Shown one piece after another: positions 1 through 22,467 of a DNA stretch of 22,951 bases; position 1 is the stretch's first letter; the number at the start of each line of letters is the position of its first letter. Position numbers and translations under genes: made by a program. The notes below the pieces were generated by a model that ran no database searches, was not told where the DNA came from, and saw only the letters and a program-made list of their open reading frames with translations. This DNA comes from a virus. The DNA lies in the IMG/VR virus record IMGVR_UViG_3300025930_000262, positions 1 through 22,951 of that record; one strand, written 5' to 3'.

Positions 1-1
1 C

Positions 2-40
2 CTGGGGATGGAGCGCGAGTGGAAGGTGGTGCCGCGATGA
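2..40 (+). CDS. 3' end of an upstream gene (partial)
   Basis: The first bases read as an open frame that ends at TGA 38-40, giving a C-terminus LGMEREWKVVPR. The stop overlaps the ATG of the next gene (37-39) as ATGA, the junction style used repeatedly in this arm (715, 2293, 2820). That arrangement is the main reason to treat it as a real gene end and not a chance frame. Only about 12 residues are present, so no function can be assigned. Confidence 0.4.
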   Translation: MGMEREWKVVPR

Positions 41-276
41 TCCGCTTCAAGGTCAGCCGGCACATCTTCCGGGACATCGAGGTTGTTGAAATATGGTGGA
101 AGGACAGGTTCATCGCGACGGTGGTCCCGCCACCCGATGGGTACGGGGGTGCTGCCGTCACGATCGTCAGCAAGCACATCCAGACCGACAAGGTGGTGAT
201 CGACGACACGAAGGACCCGCGTGTTGTGATGGTGACGTTCGACGCAGAAGGCCGGGATGAACGTCCTGGGGGTTGA
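37..276 (+). CDS. small phage protein of unknown function (79 aa)
   Basis: I do not recognise this protein. The predicted product has 79 residues, is rich in beta-forming stretches (IEVVEIWW, FIATVVPPP, KVVIDD, RVVMVTF) and ends in a charged tail GRDERPGG. It has no signal peptide or membrane segment. I chose the ATG at 37 because it overlaps the preceding stop as ATGA and has GGAAGG at 21-26 at a suitable distance; an in-frame GTG at 19 would add six residues. The 3' end overlaps the resolvase start at 257 by 20 bases, so the two are likely translated together in the replication operon. It is probably an accessory replication or early protein, by position only. Confidence 0.6.
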   Translation: MIRFKVSRHIFRDIEVVEIWWKDRFIATVVPPPDGYGGAAVTIVSKHIQTDKVVIDDTKDPRVVMVTFDAEGRDERPGG

Positions 277-4341: not shown

Positions 4342-4912
4342 TTTGCGCACCCCGATCGGGGTCCTGTCCTTCCCGGTGCTGTTCAGCCCGCGGCCCCGCG
4401 CCCCGGGCGGCGAGCCGGTCTACCAGTGCTCCCTGCTGTTCGACGAGGCGGCCCAGCGCGACCCCGCCTTTATGGCCCTGCGGCGTGCCGCGGCTGCTGC
4501 GATCGACGAAGCCAACGGCGCCGGCAAGAGCGCCGACCGCACCTTTATGGCGGGGGTCCGCTCGCCGTTCCGCCCGACCGGCGAGAAGCAATACAAAGGC
4601 TATAATATCCCAAACGGGATTTTCATCTCGCCGTGGACCAAGTCGCGGCCGGGGGTGGTCGACGCCCAGCTCAACGAGATCATGGTCGCTGACGATGTCT
4701 GGGCCGGGCAATTGGCCCGAGCAACGGTCCAGCCCTTCTGGTATCACCAGGCCGGCAACCGCGGCGTCAACTTCGCCCTCAACAACCTGCAGATCTGCCG
4801 CGCCGATGGCGAGCGGCTCGACGGCCGCCGCGCCGCCAAAGATGACTTCGACGCCTTTGCCGGGGCCGGCGCGGCGGTCATGGCGGCGGCCGATGACGAC
4901 ATCCCGTTCTGA
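4331..4912 (+). CDS. single-stranded DNA-binding protein, Enc34/DUF2815 type
   Basis: A 193-residue protein of the DUF2815 (Enc34 ssDNA-binding) family, which coats single-stranded DNA during phage replication. The opening is typical (TPIGVLSFPVLFSPRPRAPG, then YQCSLLFD). The centre KQYKGYNIPNGIFISPWTKS and GRATVQPFWYHQAGNRGVNFALNN-like segments (the sequence reads ARATVQPFWY) are the OB-fold strands seen in this family. An acidic end AADDDIPF resembles the partner-binding tails of SSB proteins. GGAGAAG sits just before ATG 4331. The gene overlaps its upstream neighbour by 11 bases and the next small gene by 20. Its place between a DUF2800 nuclease and a PolA-type polymerase is a known phage arrangement. 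Confidence 0.88.
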   Translation: MAASLRTPIGVLSFPVLFSPRPRAPGGEPVYQCSLLFDEAAQRDPAFMALRRAAAAAIDEANGAGKSADRTFMAGVRSPFRPTGEKQYKGYNIPNGIFISPWTKSRPGVVDAQLNEIMVADDVWAGQLARATVQPFWYHQAGNRGVNFALNNLQICRADGERLDGRRAAKDDFDAFAGAGAAVMAAADDDIPF

Positions 4913-5108
4913 CCGGATCGACCTTTCGCTGGTCTGTGGTCCCGGCCTGGAGGTCACCGTCCATCACGCCGACTGCCCGGAGGTTCGCCGGGCAGCCGCC
5001 GAGGGCATCCCGGTGCTGACCATGCTGGACTGTCAGGTGATGCCGGAACGGGACCAGCACCTTTGGCACTCGTGCATGGAGGCCCCTGATGACAACACGC
5101 CAATATGA
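4893..5108 (+). CDS. small Cys/His-rich protein (71 aa)
   Basis: ATG 4893 lies inside the SSB gene and opens a 71-residue frame. The product has Cys15, His24, His25, Cys28, Cys47, His56, His59 and Cys61, a density that suggests a small zinc-binding fold; the pairs are TVHHADCPEV and LDCQVM...HLWHSC. Similar HHxDCPxVR proteins occur, from memory, in phages and genomes of alphaproteobacteria, without known function. There is no strong ribosome site, so translation is probably coupled to the SSB gene. The last 20 bases overlap the low-G+C gene at 5089, and the native C-terminus may have been altered by that insertion (the tail DDNTPI is encoded in the overlap). Confidence 0.6.
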   Translation: MTTSRSDRIDLSLVCGPGLEVTVHHADCPEVRRAAAEGIPVLTMLDCQVMPERDQHLWHSCMEAPDDNTPI

Positions 5109-5631
5109 ACGTCGCCGTGCGCGGAAGTCCGTACTGGTAGAAGGCTCCGCTTTTTCTAAACCAGCAACAACGAACCTTGAGCTACTGGAAGCGTTCAAGA
5201 CCCTTACGGCTTTGATGCTTCAAGAGAAGATGCAGCAGCAAACTCCTTTGAGCATGACATTAGCTCACTGCCTATCCCTCCTTATAAAAGAAGGGTTCCG
5301 TGCGATGGGTATCCCAATGGAGTATCAAGCATGGTTGCACGACCCGAACAGGGATAACGAGGAGTTGTTGCCACTATTAGGGCGTTGCTGGTCAGCGCCA
5401 GGTTACCCAGAAGAAACAGGCGCGTTCTGGCCTCCCCCCAAGATGAACGCATTTGAGGCACGGCTTTGGCCCGAACAGATTGCTGCATTAAAGCAACACG
5501 CTCTGTCAGTAGACGACAGGACTGTCGCGCATACTTGCGTTGATCTCGCGATATTTCTGGAGACTTGTTATCAACATCGGATGCAGGCGGGCTTACAGCG
5601 TAATCGAAAAGTGCCTTCACCCCCGCACTAA
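5089..5631 (+). CDS. low-G+C inserted gene of unknown function (180 aa)
   Basis: A 180-residue protein of no family I recognise. It is mainly helical: a basic N-terminus (MTTRQYERRRARKS), a central helix LEAFKTLTALMLQEKM, a segment LSMTLAHCLSLLIKEGFRAM, a Trp/Pro-rich middle (AWLHDPNRD, FWPPPKMN) and a C-terminal helix CVDLAIFLETCYQHRM. GGAGG at 5078-5082 is well placed for ATG 5089. Base use differs sharply from its neighbours: two 60-base lines inside it (5101-5220) count to about 50% G+C, with many A/T third positions. That points to recent acquisition (a moron) or a host-interaction gene. It sits between the SSB and polymerase genes. It could be an anti-defence or takeover factor, but this is position and composition only. 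Confidence 0.75.
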   Translation: MTTRQYERRRARKSVLVEGSAFSKPATTNLELLEAFKTLTALMLQEKMQQQTPLSMTLAHCLSLLIKEGFRAMGIPMEYQAWLHDPNRDNEELLPLLGRCWSAPGYPEETGAFWPPPKMNAFEARLWPEQIAALKQHALSVDDRTVAHTCVDLAIFLETCYQHRMQAGLQRNRKVPSPPH

Positions 5632-7563
5632 GTGATGCGCCTGGTTTTAGACCTTGAGACCTCGTCCACCGCCGACCTGAGAAAGACCGGCGCGCACGCT
5701 TACGCCCAGCACCCGGACACCAGGGTCACGGTCCTGTGCTACGCCATAGATGACCGTCCGGTCGAAACCTGGATACCCGGGGTCTCGGGATTAGCGCCGC
5801 CCTGGGACTTCTCCCTGGCCGTCAACGCCGGCGCCACGATCGTCGCCCATAACTACCTTTTCGAGCACGCGATCTATTTCAACCAGCTGGTCCCGGCAGG
5901 CTGGCCGCCGATCCAGCTTAGTCAGTGGAGCTGCACGATGGCCCGCGCCCTGGTGGCGGGCTACCCGGCCTCGCTGGACCTGGCAGGGACCGCCCTCGGG
6001 CTCCTCCAACAAAAAGACCGCACCGCGCACGGCTTGATGCTCAGGTTCGCCCGGCCCCGGTCGCTCAACCCGACGACATGGTGGCACGAGACCGACCCCG
6101 AGCGGTTCCAGCAGCTGTGCGATTACTGCGCCCAGGACGTGCGGACCGAGCGCGAGCTGGACAAGCGGGTCCCCGAGCTGTCCCCGCGCGAACGTCAGGC
6201 GTTCGAGCTGGACCACCAGATCAACATGCGCGGTCTGGGTATCGACCGGATGCTGGTCAACGAGCTGGCCCTCGTGGCCGACGACGCCCGGGACAAGCTG
6301 ACCCAGGACATCGTGCGGCTGACCAACGGCCTGGTCCGGTCCCTTAATCAGGTGGCGCAGCTGCGCCTGTGGCTCATTTCCCAGGGCAAGTATATGGAGG
6401 ACTTGAAGCGTGCCACGGTGCAGGCGGCGCTCGCCGATACAACCCTCACAGGACCGCCCAGGACGGCCCTGCAGGCCCGTCTCGATGCGTCGCGGTCCTC
6501 CACGGCCAAGCTGACCGCCATAGCGTCGGCGTGCTCCCACGACGGAAGGGTGCGCGGTGCCTTTCAGTATTACGGGGCCTCGCGCACCGGGCGCTGGGCC
6601 GGCCGGCGGGTGCAGCCGCAGAACCTGTTCCGCGGCTCGATCAAGGACGTGCCGGCGGCGCTGCGGGTGATCCGCGCCGGCGCTCCGCCGGAGGACCTCG
6701 ACCTGCTGTTCGAGGACAGCGCGTTGGGGGTGGTCGCCAGCTGCTTGCGCTCGACGATCGTCGCGGGACCGCTGGGCCGGCTGGTGATCGCCGACTTCTC
6801 GCAGATCGAGGCGCGGGTACTGGCGTGGCTCGCCGGACAGGACGACGCGCTTGATGTTTTTCGGCGCGGCGAGGACATCTACGTCAAGACCGCGGCGGCG
6901 ATCGGCTCGTCGAGCCGCACCCTGGGGAAGGTCCTGGTCCTGGCCTGCGGCTTCGCGATGGGCCATGAACGCTTCCGGCAAACCGCACTGACCTATGGTC
7001 TGGTCCTGACCGAGGCAGAGGCAGCTGCTGCGGTAGACGCCTGGCGGGACCTCAACTTTCGGATCGTCCTGCTGTGGTGGGACACCCATCGCGCCCTGCT
7101 GCAGGTCACCCAGGCCGGTCCCGGCGCCGCGATGAAGTGCGGCTACGTCACTTTTATCCACCGCCCCGGGGCGATCCTGGCGCGCCTGCCGAGCGGCCGG
7201 CACCTGGTCTACCGCGACCCCAAGATCGAGACGATCCAGCGAAACGAGAAAAGCTACCCCGAGTTCACCTACATGGGGAGCCTGGGCGGCGGCTGGACGA
7301 GGCTCAGATCCTGGCCCGGCAAGATGGTCGAGAACCTCACCCAGGCCACCGCGCGGGATGTCATGGTCGAGGCCATGCTGGGCCTCAAGGACCTGCCGCT
7401 GATCGCCACCGTCCACGACGAGCTGATCGCCGAGGTCGACGAGGACGACGCCGAACTGGTCCGCGACCGGATGCTCAAGACGATGCGCCGGACCCCGGCT
7501 TGGGCATCCGGGTTGCCGGTCGACGCTGCCGGCTTTATCGTCCGCCGCTACCAAAAAGGATGA
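5632..7563 (+). CDS. family A DNA polymerase with 3'-5' exonuclease domain
   Basis: A 643-residue replicative polymerase. The proofreading domain shows exo I LDLETSS (Asp7, Glu9), exo II VAHNYLFEHAIY (Asn74, with Glu78 where Asp is usual) and exo III YCAQD (Tyr165, Asp169). The polymerase domain shows RTGRWAGRRVQPQN (near 318-331), motif A ADFSQIEAR (Asp388, Glu393), an O-helix RTLGKVLVLACGFAMG (Arg429, Lys433, Phe441) and motif C VHDE (His595, Asp596). Four residues after Lys433 is Leu where Pol I and T7 have Phe or Tyr, as in related phage polymerases I recall. There is no 5' nuclease domain. The start could be GTG 5632, directly after the previous TAA, or ATG 5635; neither has a clear ribosome site, perhaps because the upstream gene was inserted. 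Confidence 0.95.
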   Translation: MMRLVLDLETSSTADLRKTGAHAYAQHPDTRVTVLCYAIDDRPVETWIPGVSGLAPPWDFSLAVNAGATIVAHNYLFEHAIYFNQLVPAGWPPIQLSQWSCTMARALVAGYPASLDLAGTALGLLQQKDRTAHGLMLRFARPRSLNPTTWWHETDPERFQQLCDYCAQDVRTERELDKRVPELSPRERQAFELDHQINMRGLGIDRMLVNELALVADDARDKLTQDIVRLTNGLVRSLNQVAQLRLWLISQGKYMEDLKRATVQAALADTTLTGPPRTALQARLDASRSSTAKLTAIASACSHDGRVRGAFQYYGASRTGRWAGRRVQPQNLFRGSIKDVPAALRVIRAGAPPEDLDLLFEDSALGVVASCLRSTIVAGPLGRLVIADFSQIEARVLAWLAGQDDALDVFRRGEDIYVKTAAAIGSSSRTLGKVLVLACGFAMGHERFRQTALTYGLVLTEAEAAAAVDAWRDLNFRIVLLWWDTHRALLQVTQAGPGAAMKCGYVTFIHRPGAILARLPSGRHLVYRDPKIETIQRNEKSYPEFTYMGSLGGGWTRLRSWPGKMVENLTQATARDVMVEAMLGLKDLPLIATVHDELIAEVDEDDAELVRDRMLKTMRRTPAWASGLPVDAAGFIVRRYQKG

Positions 7564-7566
7564 GCC

Positions 7567-7824
7567 ATGGCCGAGTTCGTCAACACGTCGGTCGGTCTGA
7601 TAAACGTCGCGCACATCCTCCGGGTCTGGCCGATCGCTGGTCCCGCACTGCGCGGCGAACGCGAACCCGGCCCCAACGACAGCGGCGTCCAGCTGGTGGA
7701 CGGGCGCACCCTGACCTGCGAGATACTAGGGTCGGTGGAGTGGCCGTCAGCGCCGGATGTCCCGGCGGCAAAAAGCGATGACGAGGCATTGCGCCGAGCG
7801 TTGTTGCGCTCTGTGAGATACTAG
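7567..7824 (+). CDS. small unknown protein with altered C-terminus (85 aa)
   Basis: An 85-residue protein of unknown function, starting at ATG 7567 three bases after the polymerase stop, with AAAAGGA as ribosome site. The N-terminal part (FVNTSVGLINVAHILRVWPI, VQLVDGRTLTCEILG) looks like a small beta-rich domain of the kind that lines up residues for a ligand or DNA. The C-terminal part ALRRALLRS is helical. A 95-bp duplication of the 3' end changes the reading frame, so the protein now ends SVRY at TAG 7822-7824. The second copy preserves what is probably the ancestral ending SQRGSV (stop at 7923). It is the last gene of the right-going arm. Confidence 0.65.
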   Translation: MAEFVNTSVGLINVAHILRVWPIAGPALRGEREPGPNDSGVQLVDGRTLTCEILGSVEWPSAPDVPAAKSDDEALRRALLRSVRY

Positions 7825-7907
7825 GGTCGGTGGAGTGGCCGTCAGCGCCGGATGTTCCGGCGGCAAAAACCGATGACGAGGCATTGCGGCGTGCGTTGTT
7901 GCGCTCT
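7720..7907 (+). repeat. tandem duplication, 95-bp period
   Basis: Bases 7720-7812 and 7815-7907 are 93-base copies offset by 95. They differ at four positions (7761/7856, 7775/7870, 7794/7889, 7797/7892). In the gene's frame three differences are silent and one changes Ser to Thr. As 95 is not a multiple of three, the second copy is out of frame with the first. Confidence 0.95.
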
Positions 7908-7925
7908 CAGCGCGGGAGCGTGTAG
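7815..7925 (+). pseudogene. detached second copy of the gene end
   Basis: Read from 7815, this copy encodes EILGSVEWPSAPDVPAAK, then TDDEALRRALLRSQRGSV and a TAG at 7923-7925. It has no start codon or ribosome site of its own and is cut off from the preceding frame by the stop at 7822. It is best seen as the original 3' end of the small gene, stranded by the duplication. Confidence 0.7.
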
Positions 7926-7981
7926 GGCGTACCGACAAACCCGGGGTGTGCGGAACTGTGCGAAAGGCGGGTGGAGCCTCG

Positions 7982-8004
7982 AAGCCGTTGCCGACGAACG
8001 GCTT
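7982..8004 (+). terminator. hairpin after the right-going arm
   Basis: AAGCCGTT (7982-7989) and AACGGCTT (7997-8004) form a perfect 8-bp stem with a 7-base loop, followed by TAATGT, so the T-run is short. It lies about 60-180 bases after the last right-going stop codons. A weak intrinsic terminator for the replication arm is likely. Confidence 0.45.
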
Positions 8005-8087
8005 TAATGTATCCCCCTTGGCTCTGGGTAACGTCTCGGCGGCCCCGCTTTCCCGCCCAAACTGTGCCGATCACCCAGTTTTCTGCG

Positions 8088-8119
8088 CAACACTGCACAA
8101 CAACGCCCAACACTGCACA
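8088..8119. repeat. 12-bp direct repeat spaced 20 bp
   Basis: CAACACTGCACA is found at 8088-8099 and again at 8108-8119, start to start 20 bases, about two helical turns. A related CTGTGC hexamer is at 7956-7961 and 8062-8067, and its inverse GCACAG at 8115-8120. Helically phased copies in a gene-free gap suggest a protein-binding site (operator, iteron or packaging-related), but there is no further evidence. Confidence 0.5.
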
Positions 8120-8147
8120 GCGGATAAGGGGTTAAGTGGTTGAAAAG

Positions 8148-8237
8148 TCAGGTGTCTCGTGGTCCCCGTCGCTTCCCTTTAGGGGGACAGGGAAGAGGGG
8201 ACCAGGGACCCGTAATACCTTGATCTTCCTTTGCCAT
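8148..8237 (-). CDS. possible 29-residue basic peptide
   Basis: On the minus strand ATG 8237 opens a 30-codon frame ending TGA 8148-8150. A GAGGGG ribosome site lies five bases before the ATG. The product begins MAKEDQGITGPW and ends with a Pro/Lys/Arg-rich tail (PPKGKRRGPRDT). It would be the last gene of the virion arm, 39 bases after the ejection-protein stop. The same bases form the hairpin at 8161-8203, so a non-coding explanation is equally possible. Confidence 0.3.
   Translation of the reverse strand: MAKEDQGITGPWSPLPCPPKGKRRGPRDT
8161..8203. terminator. large imperfect hairpin between convergent arms
   Basis: GGTCCCC (8161-8167) pairs with GGGGACC (8197-8203), and inside it CTTCCCT (8172-8178) pairs with AGGGAAG (8189-8195), with a 10-base loop and a small asymmetric bulge. 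It is symmetrical enough to work on both strands, and it lies where the two arms converge. There is no T-run on either side, so it may act with Rho or as an RNA-stability element. Confidence 0.4.
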
Positions 8238-8256
8238 TTTTGCCCCTCGTTTGTTC

Positions 8257-8277
8257 AGGTGTTTGATTTGCACACCT
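8257..8277 (-). terminator. small hairpin at the end of the virion arm
   Basis: AGGTGT (8257-8262) and ACACCT (8272-8277) form a 6-bp stem with a 9-base loop that touches the stop codon of the ejection-protein gene. No T-run follows on the minus strand, so termination is uncertain. Confidence 0.25.
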
Positions 8278-11200
8278 CACTGTGAGGCCCTCTTCGGCGG
8301 CGGATTTGGGTTGTTTCGGAACGGCGCGTTGCTCTCCCAGGACTTATACGCGGCATAGCCGGCGCCAGCTATGCCCGCCCCTATCTTGAGCGGCAGCGGG
8401 GCCTGGGAGATGACTGGGCCGAGGTAGCGCGATGCCGGGACGAGGAGGTCGTCGGCAAGACCCATCCCCATCTGCCACATCGAGGACCCGCCCTTCTTCT
8501 CGGTTTCGCCGCCCCCGCCGCCGCCGAGCTTGGGCATCCCGGGCATCCCCGGCAGCTTGGGTATCCCGGGCGGTGCGGGTATCCCACCGCCGCCGCCTCC
8601 CGGTCGGACTTGACCCTTGGGGCCGGACCACCACGTCGCAAAGCGGTTCGCTGCATCCGGCGAGGTCCCCCACTGGAGGGGCAACGCAAGCCCGGCCCGG
8701 CCGACCGGACCCAGGGAACTCAAGTAGCTCAGGACCAGCGCCGTCAGCGGCACCCCGATCAGGTTATAGCCCGCCTTTGCTTGGTTAAACTTGGCGGTGT
8801 TGGTGTTCGGGTCCTCCCCGGACCACTGCGGCATCAGCACTTCCTGCAGGTTCTTCGCATAAGTGTTGATGGTCGCCCCATGAACCAGCGCGGAGATGTC
8901 GGAAGCATATTTCAGGTGGTTCCAGGTCTGGAGAAGGGGGTCGAGTACCCCGTTGAGGCCCGACCGGGCAAACCCCAAATCCCGGAAATACTCCCATAGG
9001 TCACCGTCTTCCTGGTGCTTTTTTACCTGGTCCGGGGCGAAGATCAGCTGCCGCACTATCGCCATAAGCGTCGCGGCGCCGACTATAGATGCCACGATCG
9101 CGGCGGTGTTGACCCCGGCGCTGGTGAGCGCAGCCGCGCCCTTCATGCGGGCCGCGGCGGGGCTGGCCCCGCGCGCCTTGGCGGTGTCTCGGGCCTGCGG
9201 GTAGGTGTGCTCGAAGAACTCGGCGAGGGCCGGGTTTATGACGTTCTTCTGGAAGCTGTAGTTGAAGCTCTGCAGCTGGAAAGCGAGCCCGATCACCGGC
9301 ACGTCGGACAGCATCGCCCGATCGACCTTGTGCGGGTTCTGGATCATGCGGTCGACCAGCCGCTGCACCGACAGCCGATAGGCGTCGCCCATCCCGCCGT
9401 ATTTGTTCGACCTGTTGGCGTTCTGCAGCAGCTGTGAGGTCGGCAGCTGCCCCTGCAGGTCGACCAGCATCTGGGCGAAGTTTTCGTGCATGTCGTCAGG
9501 CAGCCCGAGGTCGCGGAACCAGCGCCCGGCGTTCTTCCGGGCGATCTCGGCACGGTCGCCGGTCTCTGTGGAGAGGAGATGCTGCGCCAGCTTGGTCAGG
9601 AACCAGTGGCTGGTCCCGACACTCGCCGCGCGCTGCGCGTTGGTGACTTGGGTCAGCCAGGTCGCCTTGAAGAAGTTCGACTGGATGCGGTTCGCCCGGA
9701 TGCTGTCGCTGACATCGGACCCCATCCGCGACAGCATGATGGCGTCCTGCATCGGCGACTGCACGACATGGAGGTACTCGGCCAGCGCGGTGCGGTCCCG
9801 GGCGCCGGCGGTCCCGGCCAGATGCCCGAGCCAGTAGCCGATATTGCGGAAACCGGCGGTGACTTCCCCGGTCACCATCGAGGCCGCCATCGGCTCGGTA
9901 AGGCTCGCCCAGACGGCCCGCTCCATCGTAGCGAGGGTGCCGGCGGTGAAGGCGGCGTTGTGCATCGGCTGAGCGAAACGATGCCAGCCGCCGAGATTGG
10001 CCCGGCCGGTGACATCCCGGATCAGGGTGAAAAACTTGGTGGTGTCGTCCCCGTTCATAAAGTCGATGCGGTCCAGCTTGGCCTTTGCCTCGTGCAGGAG
10101 TTCCTCGTTCGGGCCAAACAGCTTGGCCTGGGCGATACGCCGGGCGACCGAGTGGAAATAGCCCGGCAGCACGACATGCGGGTCCATGTGCAGGAACCCG
10201 CCGCGCGCCATGATCTCGTCGGCTTCCGGCGGCAGCTGCCGGGCGTTGAGATACTTCCCGGAGGGCGACGAGGTATCGAAATCCGCGAGCTGACCGCCGA
10301 CCAGGTTGGCGTGCCAGTCGGCGGCGTTGACCTCGCTGATAAAGTCCCGCAAGCCGGGGTGCGCGTCGATCGCGAGCTGCTTGGCCTCGGCCTGCAGTTT
10401 GGCCAGCTCGGTCTGCTCGGCCGCGGTCGGGTTGGGCTTGGCCTCGATCTCGCGCTGACGCCTCAAGTTCTGGTTCAGCTCGCCCATCTGGTTCGGCAGC
10501 TGGGCGTTGCCCTGCCCCGCAAGCTGCTGGCTCTCCCGCGGCAGGGTGGACCATTTTTCCCACAGCGCCTGGGGGTCGGCCCCCGGCGTTCCGACTTCCT
10601 GGTCGAACATCAGCGAGTACAGCTCGCCGGCCGCTTTCCTGAACTCTGTCGGATGAACCGCGGCCCGCGCCCGGTCGTAGATGCGTGGAAAGAACCCGGA
10701 CTTGGCGTAGCCGATGTTGAGGCCGGCTCTATCCGCCTCGTCCCAGGTCCGGTTGAGCAGGTCCCGCACGTCCCCGTGCAGATCGACGATCTTTTTAGGG
10801 ATCGTGACGGTCTGGGTCGGGTCGTTCGGGCTCGGCATCTTGGTCCCGCCGCCCGTGAGGAGATGCCGCAGCATCAGCCGCTCCTCGTAGGTGATGTCGT
10901 TGAACCGCGGGTCATAGCCGTGGTTGGTCAGGATGTTGGCGTAGTTCCCGAGCAGCTCGTTCGACTTGTCGTTGACCCGTTCCTGGAAGGTCCCCCCGAT
11001 GACACGCCCCGTGCCCGGCTGGGTCGCAACGCTGTCCATGATCGGCTGCAGGATTTTCTGCGCTTCCGGCGGCGCTCGCGCGACGATCACCTTCATCATC
11101 GAGCGATAGGCATAGACCGCGGTGCGGAACCCGTCCGCGATCCGGGTCGCGCGGCTATGCCCGGGCAGCGGCTCCGGCCGGTTCGGGTCGAGCCCGAGCA

Positions 11201-20643: not shown

Positions 20644-22067
20644 TATTTCGTCACCCCATCCTCAATGTTGAAGTGCAGCGAGGCAAGGGTCGCCGGCCCC
20701 GGCGCCTGGTGCTCCAGGTGACACCCGATATGAGTGCCGTAGCCGGCAAACGGGATCGACTGCAGCCCGTAGGTATTGTCCTGGATCGTCGCGGCCAGCT
20801 CGAAGAGATCGGTGTTGTTGGCCAGCATCCCGACCTGCACACTCCACTGGCCCTGGCACATCACGTCGATCGACTTGATACGCTTGTTCTGGGTCGGGCT
20901 GTCGGCGCTGAGATGCGGCGTGCGGACGGTGACTTTGCAGCTGTCGAAAGTGTTCCGGTCGACACCGCCGTACAGCCAGATGTTGTTGTCGGTGTCGAGC
21001 GCATAGAGCATGTTCCCGACAATCGCGAAGCAGTTGACCGTAAAGCCGGGCTTGAAGGTGCTCCATGCCGTAATGTGCCCGGCCGGGAAGTAGCTGAGCA
21101 CATAGATCGTGTCGTCGATCGCCAGCCAGTAACGGCCCTGGATCGGCTGCACGATCGCGTCGGCCTGTTCGACCGCGGTCGGGTTCGACCGGATCACCGG
21201 GATCAGCAGCTGATCGATCGCCGACCCGACATCGCTGACCGAAGCCGCGTTGTTGAGCGCCTGAGCTTTCAGGGACCGCACGCCGCTGTCGGAGAGAAAC
21301 AGGACATCGCCGGTGCCAAACTGGAGGACCGAGCGCGGCGATACCAGGCCGATCCTTAAAAGCTGCTTGAGGCTGTCCTTGGTCGGGTCGGGGTCGAGGC
21401 TCCATATCTGGGTCTGCAGGCGCGCGAAGATCGCCATGTCGCTGTAGTAAATCTCCATCGCGATCGGGTCTTCACCTTCCGGGTCGTTGATCGAAAGGTT
21501 GATAAACCCGGCGCCCGGGTTGCTCACCGAAGCCGGGTCGTTGACCGCCGGGTTGTTGACCCCGGAAAAGCGCAGATACTTATCGTCGGTGCGGTACACC
21601 TTGCTTTTCCAGGTGCGCGCGTAGGTGCCGTGGATCAGAGCGCCGGCTGCATCGGAGACCATGATGTCGTCATAGGAGCAATAGCTCTGCCCGTCCGGGG
21701 CCTCCATACAAACGAAATATCTCGTGTCGAAAGGCTCCACATCGAGATACCGCTTGACAACCTGGCTCACCATCAGCGGGTGGTAGACGATGTTGTGCGG
21801 TATCAGCGGGGGGATCATCGCGATCGTGCCCCCGGCCGGGCCAAACACCTGCAGCGCGCCGATATAACCGATCATGTACAGCGGTGCCGGGGGGTCCGTG
21901 GTCACCTGCGCCACATAGGTAAAAGCCTGCCGCTTCTCGATCTCGCCGCCCTGGTTGAGGACCGCGTTTTCGAGGATGCGCAGGCTGCCGCCGGGCGCCG
22001 TCAGCGGGGTTTTGCGAACGTCGAGCCCGGCTTTGAAGTCGACGATCGAGAAGACTTTATGGGCCAT
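20643..22067 (-). CDS. tail nozzle-like protein (gp12-like, 474 aa)
   Basis: A 474-residue beta-rich protein, likely the tail tubular or nozzle protein. The start MAHKVFSIVDFKAGLDVRK then GGSLRILENAVLNQGGEIEK is typical of podophage tail proteins, and the body has repeated short beta motifs such as VLFLSDSGVRSL, GRYWLAIDDTIYVLSYFP and NMLYALDTDNNIWLYGG that suggest a propeller. I start it at ATG 22067; an ATG ten codons upstream (22097) lies inside the HNH gene and would precede the AAAGG site. A hairpin at 22071-22089 covers that site. It lies downstream of the inserted HNH gene and upstream of the gp13-like gene, as T7 gene 12 lies before 13. It could also be called a stabilisation protein. 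Confidence 0.75.
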   Translation of the reverse strand: MAHKVFSIVDFKAGLDVRKTPLTAPGGSLRILENAVLNQGGEIEKRQAFTYVAQVTTDPPAPLYMIGYIGALQVFGPAGGTIAMIPPLIPHNIVYHPLMVSQVVKRYLDVEPFDTRYFVCMEAPDGQSYCSYDDIMVSDAAGALIHGTYARTWKSKVYRTDDKYLRFSGVNNPAVNDPASVSNPGAGFINLSINDPEGEDPIAMEIYYSDMAIFARLQTQIWSLDPDPTKDSLKQLLRIGLVSPRSVLQFGTGDVLFLSDSGVRSLKAQALNNAASVSDVGSAIDQLLIPVIRSNPTAVEQADAIVQPIQGRYWLAIDDTIYVLSYFPAGHITAWSTFKPGFTVNCFAIVGNMLYALDTDNNIWLYGGVDRNTFDSCKVTVRTPHLSADSPTQNKRIKSIDVMCQGQWSVQVGMLANNTDLFELAATIQDNTYGLQSIPFAGYGTHIGCHLEHQAPGPATLASLHFNIEDGVTK

Positions 22068-22467
22068 CGGAACAGCCTTTACGGCTGTTATCTTCAAGCG
22101 TCAGCAGCTGGAGATTTTGGGGTGCGTGCAGCCCCAACACGGTTTCTCCGTAAAGCGGAACGATGTGGTCAACCGTCAGCCCCAGAAGCCGGGCATCTTC
22201 GTAGAACGCTGCGATTTCGTCCCGGTGGCTATGGTGCATACGCGGGATCAGCGCAGCTCGACGCAGCTTTGCTTTCACTGCCAGCTTTACTCTGGTATGC
22301 GGTTGCTTCGCCCGGTCCCGAGCCAGTTCGTTTTCACGATCCCGATACGCGGTCTTATAGGCGCGCGTGTGCGCCTTCCCCTTGGCCGACTGCCGATAGC
22401 GAGCCTTGGCTTCCAGCATCTTTTGTCGACCCCGCGGCGACTGGTTCCATCGTTGTTGCGGGGTCAC
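22057..22467 (-). CDS. HNH homing-type endonuclease (136 aa)
   Basis: A 136-residue protein with a Lys/Arg-rich N-terminal half (AKARYRQSAKGKAHTRAYK, REN.LARDRAK) for DNA binding and a C-terminal HNH nuclease motif. TVDHIVPLYG gives Asp100 and His101, then GLHAPQNLQLL gives His114 and Asn118, and LEDNSRKG gives Asn127 and Lys130. The start is GTG 22467, overlapping the upstream stop as GTGA. It overlaps the tail gene by 11 bases. Free-standing HNH genes are common insertions between phage structural genes. Its G+C is slightly lower than its neighbours (57-60% in two 60-base lines), fitting a mobile gene. Confidence 0.88.
   Translation of the reverse strand: MTPQQRWNQSPRGRQKMLEAKARYRQSAKGKAHTRAYKTAYRDRENELARDRAKQPHTRVKLAVKAKLRRAALIPRMHHSHRDEIAAFYEDARLLGLTVDHIVPLYGETVLGLHAPQNLQLLTLEDNSRKGCSDGP
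22071..22089 (-). promoter_or_regulatory. ribosome-site hairpin before the tail nozzle gene
   Basis: On the minus strand AACAGCC-GTAAA-GGCTGTT is a perfect 7-bp stem with the AAAGG ribosome site spanning loop and 3' stem. It ends 3 bases before ATG 22067. It lies within the last codons of the HNH gene (stop at 22057), so ribosomes on that gene would melt it. This is the same design as the hairpin at 15489-15504. Confidence 0.5.

Follow-up and report, generated by a model that had tools for sequence, protein, structure and literature searches.

Short tandem duplications that form at microhomologies in DNA genomes lie head-to-tail, and their copies are identical when fresh. In enteroviruses, imprecise recombinants carry heterologous junctions that duplicate 3–321 nt, with the left side derived from one parent and the right side from the other; all of these imprecise junctions were in frame, and on passage the duplicated stretches were resolved (PMC4055744). 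That lambdoid phages exchange diverged sequences through annealing recombinases, by relaxed homologous recombination, is established; illegitimate events, the authors suggest, are far rarer (PMC3945230).

Here we analysed a stretch of 22,951 nucleotides, the whole of which we call the window, from the viral record IMGVR_UViG_3300025930_000262. Behind its DNA polymerase gene lies a tandem repeat that shares head-to-tail copies and 2 bp of junction homology with microhomology duplications, but its copies differ at 5 of 95 positions. In its anatomy it is like the enterovirus recombinants (PMC4055744); enteroviruses, however, are RNA viruses with a different replication system, whereas the repeat belongs to a DNA phage and is out of frame, and the comparison is an analogy only. 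With phage mosaicism (PMC3945230) it would have in common the exchange of diverged sequences, and patches of difference between two strains fit this likeness; mosaicism is homology-driven, however, whereas the junction described here is out of register, with homology limited to 2 bp. Events of this kind are known, and nothing in the locus requires a new type of system.

Results

The repeat sits at the 3' end of an open reading frame (ORF) of 85 codons. The features of the locus are as follows.

5632..7563, plus strand: family A DNA polymerase, upstream (PF00476, E=3.3e-16; phrog_17, E=2.8e-99)
7567..7824, plus strand: small ORF (85 aa), with its ATG 3 bases after the polymerase stop codon; without a Pfam or PHROGs match
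7716..7810, plus strand: copy 1 of the 95-bp repeat, which the present gene reads in frame
7811..7905, plus strand: copy 2 of the 95-bp repeat, which differs from copy 1 at 5 positions; the gene no longer reads it in its native frame
7811..7812, plus strand: junction with CT microhomology; CT also stands at 7716-7717 and 7906-7907
7822..7824, plus strand: TAG at the start of copy 2, which now ends the gene after the tail SVRY
7906..7925, plus strand: stranded older ending (QRGSV and stop), as read from the sequence

The GC3 of the first 50 codons of the small ORF is 0.86 and resembles that of most other phage genes. Because of this composition and the start right after the polymerase, the small ORF is probably a real gene, even though it matches neither a Pfam nor a PHROGs family. 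After the repeat, the next gene encodes a virion-type protein of 2402 residues on the opposite strand, convergent with the small gene and ending at 8277. The phage also encodes a RuvC-like protein (Pfam match sub-threshold) and a Gp2.5/Enc34-type ssDNA-binding/annealing protein. Elsewhere in the window, the ORF preceding the polymerase (5089-5631, 180 aa) has a GC3 of 0.52, whereas the other replication genes have 0.85-0.89, and it matches nothing in PHROGs; it is possibly a recent acquisition. Among the virion genes, an ORF on the minus strand (22057-22467) shows by eye a likeness to HNH-type endonucleases.

The repeat is a head-to-tail pair of 95-bp copies, 7716-7810 and 7811-7905, identical at 90 of 95 positions. 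The duplication described in the initial annotation therefore stands, but the copies measure 95 bp rather than 93 and are not 95 bases apart; they abut directly, and 95 bases is the distance from start to start. Chance is excluded as its origin, as the match at lag 95 (90/95) is far above the levels reached in 10 codon-block shuffles (at most 51/95) and elsewhere in the window on either side (at most 59/95). Tandem Repeats Finder (TRF) scored the repeat 349, with a runner-up of 77. Across 739 kb of fetched loci, including L083 (IMGVR_UViG_3300009176_000490), other arrays with a period of at least 40 matched less well (72-91%), and the three that were inspected consisted of short units or low-complexity sequence. 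Only 2 bp (CT) are shared at the junction, so that the locus shows both the abutting head-to-tail copies and the few junction bases that characterize microhomology-type tandem duplications.

Since 95 is not divisible by 3, the gene reads copy 1 in frame and enters copy 2 out of frame. The present ORF therefore ends in ...LLRSVRY at the TAG of 7822-7824, while copy 2 in its own frame runs on to the TAG at 7923-7925 and leaves ...LLRSQRGSV stranded downstream. Both the novel SVRY tail of the small gene and the stranded SQRGSV had been read in this way before, and our analysis agrees. An unduplicated gene would encode 87 residues. The duplication would replace the last five of these (QRGSV) by three (VRY), which shortens the protein from 87 to 85 residues and barely changes it; that only these last residues are altered would explain why the duplication was tolerated. 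A programmed frameshift was also considered and rejected: the shift would have to occur downstream of the -1-frame stop at 7779-7781 but before the stop at 7822, and no slippery heptamer was seen by eye in this interval.

The five differences between the copies are C/T, C/T, G/C, C/G, and A/T. Read in the frame of ORF 7567-7824, four of them (TGC/TGT, GTC/GTT, CGC/CGG, and CGA/CGT) leave the amino acid unchanged, whereas the fifth is conservative (AGC Ser/ACC Thr); the conservative exchange had been noted before, with counts of four differences and three silent ones that were each one too low. With neither copy constrained, the probability of at least four silent changes among only five sites is 0.017-0.033. 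If duplication came first and only copy 1 was constrained, it rises to about 0.09-0.15, again for five sites only.

Both copies and the junction are found unchanged in a second contig, IMGVR_UViG_3300009176_000490 (loci L001 and L083; sample 3300009176). A literature search for this sample found no paper naming it. Over 10.5 kb the contig is 99.55% identical to the window, with 46 differing positions that are distributed in patches (307-421, 955-1006, 4486-4498, and 10432-10701). It begins and ends elsewhere than the window and has another small-gene cassette at window positions 23-247, joined on the left at a shared 22-bp sequence (CCTGGGGATGGAGCGCGAGTGG) and on the right just before the RuvC-like gene. 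The swap places window 1-256 against L083 284-939, with small genes lying between CCTGGGGATGGAGCGCGAGTGG and the RuvC-like gene. The patch at 10432-10701 has 26 differences in 270 bp (about 10%), many of them non-silent, inside the giant virion gene and near the end of the L083 contig; it is either a mosaic patch or a strain mix. Outside this patch, 17 of the 19 strain differences that could be classed in ORFs are silent. From 6260 to 9647 the two contigs are identical, and neither repeat copy contains a strain difference.

Even if they come from one sample or from re-assembly of the same reads, the two contigs are two genome versions that both have the junction. As the second, distinct contig carries the same duplication and junction, the comparison suggests that the event predates the split of the two strains. 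The patches of divergence (e.g., 10432-10701) and the replaced cassette further suggest that diverged alleles circulate and recombine in this phage group.

Relatives of the small gene were searched for in viral_contigs (with the protein and a degenerate DNA pattern), genome_contigs, phages (tblastn), and plasmids (blastn). The initial annotation had proposed that single-copy relatives ending in SQRGSV would support the ancestral form, but no single-copy relative was found in any of the four collections; only the same duplicated form was recovered, in viral_contigs. Neither parental allele was found on its own in these collections. Since a single-copy relative was not found, the ancestral form is one that we infer. 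Among the polymerase relatives whose 3' end is complete, the nearest (L004, 70% aa identity) has no such gene after its polymerase, and in Microcystis phage Mae-Yong1326-1 (polymerase 46% aa) the small genes around the polymerase have no detectable homology to the small gene. Matches of the small gene to other loci by phmmer had E-values of 0.6 or worse and were rejected as weak. In a related virus (L012, 3280-3450), tandem in-frame repeats of 39/78 bp with RARYSGSPKGRA-like units occur within an ORF.

Discussion

The repeat looks like a real, ordinary recombination scar and not like an assembly error. We consider it somewhat probable (about 0.58) that the 95-bp duplication arose from an out-of-register join, at a microhomology of 2 bp, between alleles of two related genomes that differed by about 5%. 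During co-infection two genomes of the same phage group, with alleles about 5% apart, would have met, and illegitimate recombination or template switching would have joined them out of register at the two shared bases. One allele would then have contributed the left part and the other the right part, which would place the gene end there twice. The recombinant could have survived because only the last five residues are lost in the present frame, and copy 2 would be leftover sequence between the small gene and the convergent virion gene.

The joining of two alleles, also proposed in the initial annotation, still fits best because the silent bias between the copies is like that of strain variation and because the patch at 10432-10701 suggests that diverged alleles exist. 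The RuvC-like and Gp2.5/Enc34-type annealing proteins of the phage support it as well. Against it count the small number of differences (five), the probability of about 0.09-0.15 under duplication first, which does not reject divergence after duplication, and the parental alleles, which were not found singly.

That probability is compatible with a duplication of 95 bp within a single lineage, by replication slippage or microhomology, with later drift under purifying selection on copy 1 and none on copy 2. We regard this order of events as possible rather than probable. It is the simplest event, and its presence in two strains allows some time for divergence; however, the repeat holds five differences between its copies and none between the strains in either copy, and copy 2 has neither a stop codon nor an indel nor any clearly non-silent change. 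As the strains are identical from 6260 to 9647, little points to so fast a rate.

An assembly or chimeric-read artefact that joined contigs of two strains is highly unlikely, even though the population is strain-mixed and the window and L083 differ in patches. An artefact would be expected to be missing from other assemblies of this phage, but the duplication is unchanged in L001/L083; the same breakpoint with its 2-bp overlap occurs in two contigs that differ in their ends and in the left cassette. Chimeric reads are not expected at the same base twice, and a graph assembler requires junction-spanning reads, so a join over two shared bases would be unexpected otherwise. The genomically distinct second contig largely refutes the assembly join of two strains that had been suggested initially.

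Retention for a function appears most unlikely: an ORF (VEWPSAPDVPAAKTDDEALRRALLRSQRGSV) runs from GTG 7830, five bases past the new stop, to 7925, and the coding frame of copy 2 is intact, but the ribosome-binding context is weak, no relatives were found that would show selection on copy 2, and an intact 31-codon frame is expected anyway in a young copy. That the arrangement is maintained to split the C-terminal tail of the small protein into a separately re-initiated 31-residue peptide is hardly credible. Two further origins were rejected: direct terminal repeats, because the locus is internal in two contigs and its copies are adjacent and not identical, and an att-type duplication, because no sequence separates the copies.

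The finding is modest and ordinary, a single event in an uncharacterised small gene, seen in two contigs of one phage group. If two alleles were indeed joined, the locus would be a record from a wild DNA phage of a persisting out-of-register recombinant between diverged strains, and thereby a DNA counterpart of the imprecise recombinants of enteroviruses. It would make a useful test case for the tolerance of phages to illegitimate junctions.
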